Below, piece after piece: positions 7,428 to 56,911 of a stretch of DNA of 64,000 nucleotides (the stretch's first letter is position 1; every line of letters begins with the position of its first letter). This DNA comes from Sphingomonas sp. TZW2008. Its GTDB lineage: Bacteria > Pseudomonadota > Alphaproteobacteria > Sphingomonadales > Sphingomonadaceae. The position numbers and the translations under genes were made by a program. The notes beneath the pieces were generated by a model, which saw only the letters and a list, made by a program, of their open reading frames with translations, was not told the DNA's origin and made no database searches. The DNA is taken from contig NZ_BDJB01000008.1 in assembly GCF_002117915.1 (NCBI RefSeq), positions 310,001 to 374,000 of the forward strand. Direction: 5' to 3'.

Positions 7428-7927
7428 GCACCAGCGAAGTCGCGCCTAGGGAGCGCGCGGCGGCGGGTCAACCGGGCGTGAAGCTGACGCACGCTCAGGC
7501 CTGTGATCGGATCGCGCCAATGGGGCGCGATATCGAGCAGCGGACGCAGCACGAAATCGCGGTCGCGGAACAGGCGGTGCGGGATCACCAGCTCGGCAGC
7601 GCGGAACGCCCCGCCCGACCAGAGGACGATGTCGAGATCGATCACCCGCGCCGACCAACGCGCGCCGCGCCGCCGCCCGAACGCGCGCTCGATCGCCTTC
7701 AGCCGGCGCAGCATGTCGCGCGGTTCGTCGGCGCTGCGGACGATCGCGACCGCGTTGCAGAACCGGCGCAGCGACGGACCGATCGGCGCGCTGGTGATCG
7801 TGCGCGACGCCGTGACCGTGCCGATCGCCCGCAAAGCGTCGAGCGCTGCCGCCACTTCCGCTACCGGCCCACCATGCCGGCCGTGCCGATTCGAGCCGAG
7901 CGCGACGACATAGGTTGAGCGGGTCAT
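7418..7927 (-). CDS. folK: 2-amino-4-hydroxy-6-hydroxymethyldihydropteridine diphosphokinase
   Basis: Transfers pyrophosphate from ATP to 6-hydroxymethyl-dihydropterin in folate synthesis. The 169-residue protein carries the N-terminal VVALGSN, the RRGARWSARVIDLDIVLW block with the Mg-binding Asp pair, and IPHRLFRDRDFVLRPLLDIAP. ATG 7927 is chosen because the family starts directly before the first strand; the open frame extends 12 codons further. Its stop codon TAG (7418-7420) lies inside the downstream tRNA-Lys gene. The divergent glycosylase gene starts 23 bp away, so both promoters must overlap the opposite gene or each other. Confidence 0.93.
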   Translation of the reverse strand: MTRSTYVVALGSNRHGRHGGPVAEVAAALDALRAIGTVTASRTITSAPIGPSLRRFCNAVAIVRSADEPRDMLRRLKAIERAFGRRRGARWSARVIDLDIVLWSGGAFRAAELVIPHRLFRDRDFVLRPLLDIAPHWRDPITGLSVRQLHARLTRRRALPRRDFAGAGP

Positions 7928-7950
7928 GCCGCGCGGCGTATCGCACCGCG

Positions 7951-8628
7951 ATGAACTTCGCACCCTCCCCGCTTCCCGCTACCGAGCCGCCGCGCGATTG
8001 CCCGCGCTGCCCGCGCCTCGTCGCCTTTCGCCACACGTTGCAGGCCGACTATCCGGATTGGTGGAACGCCCCCGTCCCCGCCTTCGGCGATCCCGACGCC
8101 TGGCTCGTCATCGTCGGTCTCGCCCCGGGCAAGCACGGCGCCAACCGCACCGGCCGCCCCTTCACCGGCGATTATGCGGGAGAGCTGCTCTACGCCACGC
8201 TCGCCAAGTTCGGGTTCAGCGAGGGAGTATTCGACGCACGGCCCGACGATGGCCTCGTCCTGAGACAGGCAATGCTGGTCAATGCCGTCCGCTGCCTTCC
8301 GCCCGAGAACAAGCCGACGCCCGAGGAAATTCGCACCTGCCGCCCCTTTCTTGAATCGCCGCTGGCTGCGCTGCCGAACGCGCGGGTGTTCATCGCGCTC
8401 GGCCAGATCGCGCACCAGTCGGCGGTAAAGGCACTCGGCGGCAAGTTGCCCAAAGCCAAGTTCGGCCACCTCGCCGAGCACCGCATGCCCGACGGGCGGA
8501 TCCTGATCGATAGCTATCATTGCTCGCGCTACAATCAGAACACCGGCCGCCTCACCGCCGACATGTTCGAAGCCGTCTTCGCCCGCGCGATCGCGCTACG
8601 CGATACCCCCGCCTTGTCGCCCGCCTGA
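7951..8628 (+). CDS. Family 5 uracil-DNA glycosylase (UDGb)
   Basis: Removes uracil and possibly other deaminated bases from DNA. The 225-residue protein shows the family-5 active-site motif GLAPGKHGANRTGRPFTGD (residues 56-74), NAVRCLPPENKPTPEE in the middle, and the His-containing DSYHCSRYN loop near the C-terminus. Cys17, Cys20 and later Cys residues fit the [4Fe-4S] cluster of this family. The first motif lacks the Asp used by family 1 and family 4 enzymes, as expected for UDGb. Start ATG 7951 is close to the divergent folK start. A second, unrelated UDG-fold enzyme (UdgX) is encoded at 53.3 kb. Confidence 0.9.
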   Translation: MNFAPSPLPATEPPRDCPRCPRLVAFRHTLQADYPDWWNAPVPAFGDPDAWLVIVGLAPGKHGANRTGRPFTGDYAGELLYATLAKFGFSEGVFDARPDDGLVLRQAMLVNAVRCLPPENKPTPEEIRTCRPFLESPLAALPNARVFIALGQIAHQSAVKALGGKLPKAKFGHLAEHRMPDGRILIDSYHCSRYNQNTGRLTADMFEAVFARAIALRDTPALSPA

Positions 8629-53337: not shown

Positions 53338-54723
53338 ATGCGTCTCGTAACCCTGGCGACGCCCGACGATTTTGACGCGTGGCGCGATCAGGCGCGCGCG
53401 CTGGCGAGCGACGACGTGCCGCCGGAAGACATCGTATGGCAGGTGGGATCGCAAGTCGGCGACCTGTTTGCCGCCGGCGCGACGCCGCGCCACGATGCCG
53501 TCGGCGCGCCGCTCAAGGTGCCGCGCGGCTTTATCGATCTCGCGCGCAACGCCATTCTGCACCGCGATCCTGAACGGTTCGCGCTGCTCTACACGCTGCT
53601 CACCCGGCTGCGGCGCGAGACGGGACTGATTGAGGATCACGCCGATCCGCTGGTGCGCCGGCTGGAGGGCCTTGCAAAGCACGTGCGCCGCGACATCCAC
53701 AAGATGCGCGCCTTTGTCCGGTTCCGCGAGGTCGTAGACCAGGGCGACAGCCGCTATGTCGCATGGTTCGAGCCCGATCACCATATCGTGCGCGCCAACG
53801 CCGCCTTCTTCGTCAATCGCTTCGCCAGCATGCGCTGGTCGATCCTGACGCCCGAGGTATCGCTGCACTGGGATGGCGCCGCGCTCAGCGAAGGACCAGG
53901 CGCGACCAAGGCGGATGCGCCCGACGGCGATCCGATCGAGGAGGTGTGGAAAACCTATTATGCGTCGATCTTCAACCCGGCGCGCGTCAAGGTCGGCGCG
54001 ATGCTGAAGGAGATGCCGCGCAAATACTGGAAGAACATGCCCGAAACCGCGCTCGTCCCCGGACTGCTCGCGCAGGCGCAGGCACGGGAGAGCGGGATGA
54101 TCGAGAAGGCACGGACAACGCCCGGCGGCAACAGCGAGATCGCATGGGACGCGCTGCGCGAGGAGGCGCTGGGGTGCACGCGCTGCCATCTCTATCGCCC
54201 AGCGACGCAGACGGTGTTCGGCGAAGGGCCGGTATCGGCCGCGATCATGTTCGTCGGCGAACAGCCGGGTGATCAGGAGGATCTGGCCGGGCGCCCGTTC
54301 GTCGGCCCCGCGGGGCAGGTATTCGATCGGGCGCTCGGCGAGGCCGGGATCGACCGCGCCGAAACCTACGTCACCAACGCGGTGAAGCACTTCAAGTTCG
54401 AGCCGCGCGGCAAGCGGCGCATTCACGCCAAGCCCGACGCAGGCGAGATCGAGGCGTGCCGCTGGTGGATCGAGCAGGAGCAGATGCTGGTCCGGCCAAA
54501 GGTGACGGTGGCGCTCGGCGCCACCGCCGCGCGATCCTTGTTCGGCAAGACGATGACGATCAGCCGCGAGCGCGGCCGTGCGCTCGCCCTGCCCGAAGGC
54601 GGCGAGGCGTGGATCACGGTGCATCCGAGCTACCTGCTGCGGCTGCCCGACGAGGCCGCGCGGACGGCAGAATATGCCCGCTTCGTCGAGGATTTGAAAC
54701 TGGCCAAGGCGGCTGCCGCCTAG
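53338..54723 (+). CDS. udgX: DUF4130-UdgX fusion, uracil-DNA crosslinking protein
   Basis: 461-residue fusion. Residues 1 to about 250 form a DUF4130 domain (MRAFVRFREVVD..., HIVRANAAFFVNRFASMRWSILTPEVSLHWDG, KTYYASIFNPARVKVGAMLKEMPRKYWKN). Residues about 270-461 are a family-4-like uracil-DNA-glycosylase domain with GCTRCHLY cluster Cys, MFVGEQPGDQEDLAGRPFVGPAGQ, the UdgX hallmark loop KRRIH (His363) and VHPSYLLRL. In characterised UdgX this His bonds covalently to the abasic sugar left by uracil, so the protein stays on the DNA. The radical-SAM partner often found beside DUF4130 is not in the window. Confidence 0.93.
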   Translation: MRLVTLATPDDFDAWRDQARALASDDVPPEDIVWQVGSQVGDLFAAGATPRHDAVGAPLKVPRGFIDLARNAILHRDPERFALLYTLLTRLRRETGLIEDHADPLVRRLEGLAKHVRRDIHKMRAFVRFREVVDQGDSRYVAWFEPDHHIVRANAAFFVNRFASMRWSILTPEVSLHWDGAALSEGPGATKADAPDGDPIEEVWKTYYASIFNPARVKVGAMLKEMPRKYWKNMPETALVPGLLAQAQARESGMIEKARTTPGGNSEIAWDALREEALGCTRCHLYRPATQTVFGEGPVSAAIMFVGEQPGDQEDLAGRPFVGPAGQVFDRALGEAGIDRAETYVTNAVKHFKFEPRGKRRIHAKPDAGEIEACRWWIEQEQMLVRPKVTVALGATAARSLFGKTMTISRERGRALALPEGGEAWITVHPSYLLRLPDEAARTAEYARFVEDLKLAKAAAA

Positions 54724-55525: not shown

Positions 55526-56158
55526 TCAGCGCAGGCCGAGCATCTTGTGCGTCTGCAACGACAGGCGCCAGCGCGGCCGCTCCATCACCAGCGCCATCGC
55601 CGCTGCCTGGTTCGCCGCGGCGTTCGCGTCGTCGAGCGGCTGGATCAAATGGTGGTGGAAATCCCACCCCTCCATCGCCGCGACGTCGCTGCCCGGCTGC
55701 GGCCACACCAGCTTCAGCTCGTTGCCTCGTCGCTGCACCGTCGTGCTGCCCGCCTTGGGGCTGATGCACACCCAGTCGATCTCAGGATGGACGGGCAGCG
55801 TGCCGTTGCTCTCGATCGCGATGAAGAAGCCCGCGGCGTGCAGCGCATCGACCAGCGCGTCGTCGACCTGCAACATCGGCTCGCCCCCGGTCAGCACGAC
55901 GAAGCGATCCGCCTCACCGCCGTCCCACATCTTGACGGCGGCCTCGGCGAGCCCGGCGGCATCGGCGAAGCGCCCGCCGCCCAGCCCGTCGATCCCGACG
56001 AAATCGGTGTCGCAAAAGCGGCAGATCGCGCTCGCGCGATCCTGCTCGCGCCCCGACCACAAATTGCATCCGGCGAAGCGAACAAACACCGCGCGTCGTC
56101 CGGCCTGCGCGCCCTCACCCTGCAGGGTGAGGAACATTTCCTTGACCGCGTAGCTCAT
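55526..56158 (-). CDS. queE: 7-carboxy-7-deazaguanine synthase
   Basis: 210-residue radical-SAM enzyme that contracts 6-carboxy-tetrahydropterin to CDG in queuosine synthesis. The cluster motif is the CX14CX2C form seen in some QueE (FAGCNLWSGREQD..., CRFCDTDFVG), with VVLTGGEPMLQ and SNGTLPVHPEIDWVCISPKAG following. ATG 56158 overlaps the queC stop by one base (TGATG). Confidence 0.93.
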   Translation of the reverse strand: MSYAVKEMFLTLQGEGAQAGRRAVFVRFAGCNLWSGREQDRASAICRFCDTDFVGIDGLGGGRFADAAGLAEAAVKMWDGGEADRFVVLTGGEPMLQVDDALVDALHAAGFFIAIESNGTLPVHPEIDWVCISPKAGSTTVQRRGNELKLVWPQPGSDVAAMEGWDFHHHLIQPLDDANAAANQAAAMALVMERPRWRLSLQTHKMLGLR

Positions 56159-56871
56159 CAGGGTGCCGGCGGGGTGACCGCATAGGCGGTGGGATCGGCG
56201 ATCTCGGCGTCGTCGAAACCCTTGTGACGCAACCGGCAGCTGTCGCACAGCCCGCAGTGGAGCCCGCCCGGCGCGGGATCGTAGCACGACCAGCTGATCC
56301 CGAGATCGAGGCCGAGCCTTGTGCCCTCGCGCACGATATCGGCCTTCGTCATGCTCTGCAGCGGCGCATGGATGCGGAACGGCTTCCCCTCGACGCCGGC
56401 CTTGGTGGCGAGTTCGGCCAGCGTCTCAAAGCCGGCGATGAACTCAGGCCGGCAATCGGGATAGCCCGAATAATCGAGCGCATTGACGCCGATGTAGAGC
56501 GAACGCGCACCCGACGCCTCGGCCCAGGCGAGTGCGAGGCTGAGGAACACGGTGTTGCGCGCCGGCACGTAGGTGACGGGAATGTCGCTGCCCACGCCGT
56601 CCTTCGGCACCTCGATATCCGCCGTCAGCGCCGAGCCGCCGAACGCCGACAGATCGATCGGCAGGACGACGTGGCGCGTTGCGCCGAGCAGCCGAGCGAT
56701 GCGGCGGGCGGCGGCAAGCTCGACTTGGTGGCGCTGATTATAGTCGATCGAGAGCGCGAGCAGCGGATGCCCCGCCTCGCGCGCGAGCGCGGCGGACACC
56801 ATCGAATCGAGCCCGCCCGATACGAGCACGACGGCCGGCGCGAGCGCGGCAGAGGATTGATCGCTTGTCAT
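56158..56871 (-). CDS. queC: 7-cyano-7-deazaguanine synthase
   Basis: 237-residue ATP-dependent ligase that turns CDG into preQ0. PP-loop motif [15 protein letters not shown] is at the N-terminus, [11 protein letters not shown] and [18 protein letters not shown] in the middle, and a zinc site of four Cys near the C-terminus ([21 protein letters not shown]). ATG 56871; a perfect terminator upstream isolates this two-gene operon from the next gene. Confidence 0.94.
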
Positions 56872-56911
56872 GATCGCGGCGCGGCTAGGCCGATTGGCCC
56901 CGCGTTGCAAG

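Follow-up and report, generated by a model that had tools for sequence, protein, structure and literature searches.

The window, a 64,000-nt stretch of the Sphingomonas sp. TZW2008 genome, contains an intact open reading frame at 53338–54723 (+) that encodes a DUF4130–UdgX fusion protein of 461 aa. Residues 8–237 of the product (53359–54048, +) match the NCBIfam model TIGR03915 (DUF4130) at 214.7 bits, against a curated cut-off of 112.25, and residues 239–455 (54052–54702, +) match TIGR03914 (UdgX) at 322.2 bits, against a curated cut-off of 189.95. Pfam assigns PF13566 (138 bits) and PF03167 (116.5 bits) to the same protein, both above their cut-offs. The preliminary description of this DNA had joined DUF4130 to UdgX in one polypeptide, and the two NCBIfam matches bear this out. 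The neighbours it named are likewise recovered: a hemerythrin-domain gene (PF01814; 52787–53314, +) lies 23 nt upstream of the fusion, and a DedA/VTT-family gene (PF09335; 54814–55479, +) lies downstream. QueE (55526–56287, −; TIGR04508, 334.2 bits) and QueC (56158–56910, −; TIGR00364) are encoded on the opposite strand. QueE is the only radical-SAM gene seen in the window, so the earlier statement that the window holds no radical-SAM protein is inexact as worded, though QueE, a TIGR04508 equivalog and queuosine-pathway enzyme, is ruled out as the partner of the fusion.

The UdgX half aligns with Mycobacterium UdgX structures (phmmer, 6ail and others, E 1e-51) across the GEQPG, KRRIH and HPS motifs. 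PMC10359453 supplies our list of UdgX features (motif A GEQPG, a KRRIH-type loop with a histidine, and motif B HPS..LLR) and gives roles for E52, Q53, N91, H109, H178 and R184 of Mycobacterium smegmatis UdgX. All of the listed features are present in the fusion: motif A at residues 307–311 (54256–54270, +), the KRRIH R-loop at residues 359–363 (54412–54426, +) and motif B, HPSYLLR, at residues 429–435 (54622–54642, +). The six catalytic residues are identical and correspond to E308, Q309, N347, H363, H429 and R435, respectively. Because the motifs align, H363 is equivalent to H109 of the mycobacterial enzyme, and the preliminary description was right to take the KRRIH loop with His363 as diagnostic of UdgX.

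Conservation was assessed in a 26-row diverse alignment that drew on three of 80 fusion relatives (at most 88% identical; 61 of the 80 were used in one row selection) and 22 of the 30 loci L091–L120. Twenty-four of these rows have H363; of the remaining two, one has no UdgX domain and one comes from a frameshifted gene. C280, C283 and C374, considered with regard to the 4Fe–4S cluster of UdgX, are conserved in 24–25 of the 26. With the domain call and the diagnostic histidine in place, the C-terminal half is best predicted to capture uracil covalently, with the bond formed through His363, and the fusion probably traps uracil-containing DNA. The matched crystallised chains differ from the fusion in that they are 205–229 aa long and have no DUF4130 domain.

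The DUF4130 part has 18 invariant positions in the same alignment, including H121, R128, E145, R161 and R216. A PDB sequence search with this part returned no convincing structure (best match E 0.011). An AlphaFold2 model built from 62 sequences reached a pLDDT of 76.8, although most of the conserved C-terminal part (residues 198–226 and 231–240) lies below 50. Foldseek with this model found nothing at E ≤ 0.001 (best E 0.01), while VIA gave Z scores of up to 8.0, with RecJ at 7.1–7.5, in a range (Z ≤ 8) that the tool itself rates as common. The best 50 VIA rows are what we take to be DHH/DHHA1-type proteins and their relatives, namely RecJ, Cdc45, family II pyrophosphatase and the C-Ala domain of AlaRS. 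Profile–profile comparison of 25 DUF4130 with 30 DHHA1 sequences found no relation (probability 0.06), and hmmscan of 26 DUF4130 relatives found no DHHA1. DUF4130 may be a very divergent DHHA1-like DNA-binding fold, which we offer as no more than a lead.

The preliminary description presented the fusion as lacking its radical-SAM partner. A TIGR03916 search of the whole genome (3.50 Mb, 23 contigs, completeness 100) overturns this: one strong match lies on another contig, at C14:88307–89503, with 573.4 bits against a cut-off of 343.5 (573.7 for the protein alone). TIGR03916 is presumably the same family as COG4277. The open reading frame holds the sequence CIFDCHYC, a CX3CX2C cluster motif. 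The fusion is ~105 kb and the partner ~88 kb from the nearer end of their respective contigs; because both are so far from the ends, their separation does not reflect an assembly cut between neighbours. In the genome search, Pfam Radical_SAM scored this true partner at 28.5 bits, under its cut-off of 29.5, so that a look with Pfam only could miss it. A helix–hairpin–helix at the C terminus of the partner is possible; a PDB sequence search returned weak matches only, among them a ComEA-type protein for residues 328–382 (E 0.6), and a model of the L008 copy reached a pLDDT of 57 and a pTM of 0.44.

To place the pair in a wider context, we surveyed 101 genomes drawn from the genus and 249 drawn from the phylum. 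In the genus draw, the partner and DUF4130 score above cut-off in the same 93 genomes. The phylum draw contains 60 genomes with the partner, all of which have DUF4130, and 63 with DUF4130, 60 of which have the partner; the three that do not (G258, G269 and G317) belong to one genus. Both genes are intact in Sphingomonas sp. TZW2008, and their two families co-occur almost without exception. The link of UdgX to DUF4130 is looser, because 16 of the 63 DUF4130 genomes, 15 of them with the partner, have no UdgX above cut-off and, of the 57 phylum genomes with UdgX above cut-off, 47 have DUF4130 and 10 do not. In 46 of the 63, the two domains are fused or abut (taking the frameshifted G234 as abutting and G254, with its contig break, as not), which makes the fusion the majority architecture in this draw. 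The DUF4130–UdgX gene of G234 (L105) is frameshifted in its UdgX half, possibly by an assembly error.

The partner lies upstream of DUF4130, on the same strand and within 6 kb, in 83 of the 93 genus genomes, in keeping with the earlier remark that DUF4130 is often next to a radical-SAM gene; the two are apart in the other 10, which include Sphingomonas sp. TZW2008 and one single-contig genome (G016). In the phylum draw the partner adjoins DUF4130 in 59 of 60 genomes, the sole exception being Sphingomonas sp. TZW2008. Trees were built with eight of the 10 genomes in which the genes are apart (all except G006 and G090) and without L077, whose radical-SAM gene has a broken frame; five further rows were dropped from the radical-SAM tree. 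In the fusion tree, the label 'split' on these eight genomes needs five changes, three of them forced by starred branches, and Sphingomonas sp. TZW2008 (G000) groups with the split genomes G073, G016 and G001 and with three relatives that have no partner in the fetched locus. In 32 of 70 relatives it is the hemerythrin gene that separates the partner from the fusion, and this gene may therefore be an accessory of the cluster; the match of its product to the PA2171 persister family is under cut-off. Side observations from these loci are that the broken frame of L077 may be an assembly error, and that the fusion and partner copies of L027 and L066 resemble those of Sphingomonas although the records are titled Microvirga sp. 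and Bacillus sp., which makes these titles probably wrong.

The sequence GAAC-N7-GAAC stands directly before the partner start in 69 of the 70 relatives with both genes in the locus, and the remaining one (L079) departs from it by a single base. We take this sequence to be of the GTTC-N7-GTTC type, the alphaproteobacterial LexA box. The start and box comparison in the relatives' loci used plus-strand matches, and boxes were sought without mismatches. A longer radical-SAM start at L004:8272 was dropped in favour of 8293, because relatives lack the upstream ATG and the stretch is taken up by the box. From the aligned sequence, the radical-SAM gene reads as leaderless, with the box apparently over the −10 element. 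The box is found at the partner in all eight split genomes examined (at C14:88275–88289 in Sphingomonas sp. TZW2008), and what precedes the partner gene looks like a DNA-damage switch. In these eight genomes the 700 nt upstream of the fusion contain no exact box, nor does one occur over the same distance in 10 relatives without a partner in the locus, two of which had less than 140 nt of upstream sequence. In Sphingomonas sp. TZW2008 the 1.5 kb preceding the fusion are free of exact boxes, and the whole window has none on either strand, with 1.6 expected by chance.

The Sphingomonas sp. TZW2008 genome holds 110 copies of GAAC-N7-GAAC, compared with 27 of the backward control. We fetched 20 box regions from 100 listed places (of the 110 counted); 15 of them showed an open reading frame of at least 100 aa near the box, and eight proteins were scanned. 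Five boxes lie before recognised repair genes, one before a lipase-like gene, and the rest before no clear gene, a share near SOS genes that is biased upward because AT-rich spacers were the main criterion for choosing regions. One copy precedes uvrA by 7 nt, two precede imuA-like genes by 25 and 19 nt, and another separates a DinB-like gene (at 1 nt) from radA (at 65 nt); the matches to ImuA and DinB score under their NCBIfam cut-offs. The two imuA-like genes of Sphingomonas sp. TZW2008 with a box 19–25 nt before the start are in L181 (C3) and L193 (C15).

Four phylum genomes (G258, G269, G317 and G170, the first three sharing a genus) have DUF4130 sequence and no partner above cut-off. G258 has an intact fusion at L126:1170–2675, with a divergent imuA-like neighbour and a box between them. 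In G269, DUF4130 is degenerate (R128 changed and the conserved C-terminal part lost) and UdgX is complete at the tested residues; in G317, DUF4130 is truncated and no UdgX was found in the stretch; and in G170, only the last part of DUF4130 remains and the UdgX frame is open. DUF4130 has thus decayed in three of the four, and UdgX is intact in three of the four. Although the sample is small and mostly of one genus, the direction of decay is what would be expected if the radical-SAM protein and DUF4130 formed a core from which UdgX can be separated; the dependence of DUF4130 on the partner is not absolute, since G258 keeps an intact fusion with no partner detected. The same family includes four genomes with the partner (G134, G207, G236 and G319) that likewise have a divergent imuA-like neighbour (ImuA 35 bits, cut-off 150) with a box in the gap; three of the partner-less loci would accordingly appear to derive from this layout by loss of the radical-SAM gene. 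In all, seven genomes of one family (L126, L127, L128 and L226–L229) have an imuA-like gene divergent from the module with one GAAC-N7-GAAC between, and this shared box ties the module to a translesion cassette.

We consider it probable that the fusion is one half of a repair pair, linked to the SOS response and made up of the radical-SAM protein and DUF4130, to which UdgX adds a uracil-capturing arm. DNA damage would lift LexA repression, leading to production of the radical-SAM protein, which would join the DUF4130 domain in acting on a lesion in the DNA. The UdgX domain would excise uracil and hold the abasic sugar covalently through His363, and it could thereby shield the captured abasic site or tether the complex there. 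The radical-SAM/DUF4130 pair would form the core, to which UdgX can be attached. For Sphingomonas sp. TZW2008, this would mean that the fusion is made outside direct SOS control and is joined by its SOS-induced partner.

The preliminary description had instead allowed for a self-contained uracil-capture protein, in which DUF4130 would be a DNA-binding or regulatory appendage of UdgX. UdgX is active alone in published work (PMC10359453), the fusion persists away from the partner and the partner's box in the split genomes tested, and G258 has an intact fusion with no partner detected. Yet the partner is present in the Sphingomonas sp. TZW2008 genome, a finding that the preliminary description had itself listed as counting against its idea, the sets of genomes with DUF4130 and with the partner are identical in the genus draw, nearly all DUF4130 genomes without UdgX have the partner, and DUF4130 has decayed in most partner-less genomes. 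With DUF4130 nearly always accompanied by the partner across the 101 genus and 249 phylum genomes, the proposal is not supported for this locus and we regard it as unlikely; it may apply in G258, with its intact fusion and no detected partner.

A further reading, quite unlikely in our estimate, combines capture and repair at one site: the SOS-induced radical-SAM/DUF4130 pair would process sites covalently captured by UdgX, and capture would mark or shield them until the radical enzyme arrives with the SOS response. Split genomes would then hold a standing trap and an inducible processor, and DUF4130 might in addition be DHHA1-like. About as unlikely is the proposal that the radical-SAM protein cuts or rearranges the UdgX–DNA adduct and so turns suicide capture into a repair cycle. 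The frequent fusion or abutment of DUF4130 and UdgX speaks for it, as does the strictness with which DUF4130 and the partner are paired, but the partner is kept in 15 of the 16 DUF4130 genomes without UdgX, and 10 of the 57 UdgX genomes have no DUF4130; as each occurs without the other in some genomes, neither UdgX nor the DUF4130/partner pair needs the other everywhere. That the fusion is a decaying remnant of a broken-up gene cluster, as its distance from the partner and the lack of an exact box within 1.5 kb upstream might suggest, is highly improbable, given its intact frame, two domains above cut-off, retention of all 18 invariant positions of DUF4130 and of the catalytic residues of UdgX, and the survival of the fusion in the related split genomes G001, G016 and G073.

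The NCBIfam names of TIGR03914, TIGR03915 and TIGR03916 (UDG_fam_dom, SAM_7_link_chp and rSAM_link_UDG) themselves record the link between radical-SAM protein, DUF4130 and UDG; the fusion is a match for TIGR03914 and TIGR03915, and the C14 gene for TIGR03916. The TIGR03915/TIGR03916 pair differs here in lying on different contigs, whereas it is adjacent in the other 59 partner-bearing phylum genomes. In PMC3765255, DUF4130 is linked to SplB-like radical-SAM proteins and uracil glycosylases and predicted to be a mutagenesis-related enzyme; the same grouping is found here, and there it is a prediction only. PMC8565304 describes a COG1573–COG4277 operon of Bacteroidetes under LexA-type (SOS) control and mentions a uracil-DNA-glycosylase system in Alphaproteobacteria reported earlier as SOS-regulated. 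That operon resembles the present genes in pairing a uracil-glycosylase-family gene with a second gene under SOS regulation, and differs in its box sequence (here GAAC-N7-GAAC) and in that the genes here are apart. Modification of thymines by the radical-SAM/DUF4130 pair is a guess already in print; the domain architecture and the SOS link have been published too. The separated arrangement, with an exact SOS-type box on the radical-SAM half only, appears mildly new, no such arrangement having been found in print within an incomplete coverage of the literature, and so does the pattern of decay, which links DUF4130 with the radical-SAM protein.

What looked like an oddity, a partnerless fusion, becomes an ordinary member of a widespread DNA-damage module, in which DUF4130 belongs with the radical-SAM protein and UdgX is detachable. 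The action of the radical-SAM/DUF4130 pair on DNA is now easier to test, and natural test cases are at hand in the genomes with the genes apart, the UdgX-only genomes, the candidate SOS promoter and the G258 fusion without a detected partner, the last being the best natural test of a self-contained fusion. As to an anti-phage role, PADLOC gave no match for the fusion, the partner or the hemerythrin protein, and PHROGs gave only a weak radical-SAM match, for the partner. The genome as a whole contains five PF03167 matches, and the window itself carries a second UDG-superfamily gene at 7915–8628 (+), which scores 93.1 bits with PF03167, above cut-off, and 57.6 with the family-4 UDG model, under cut-off.
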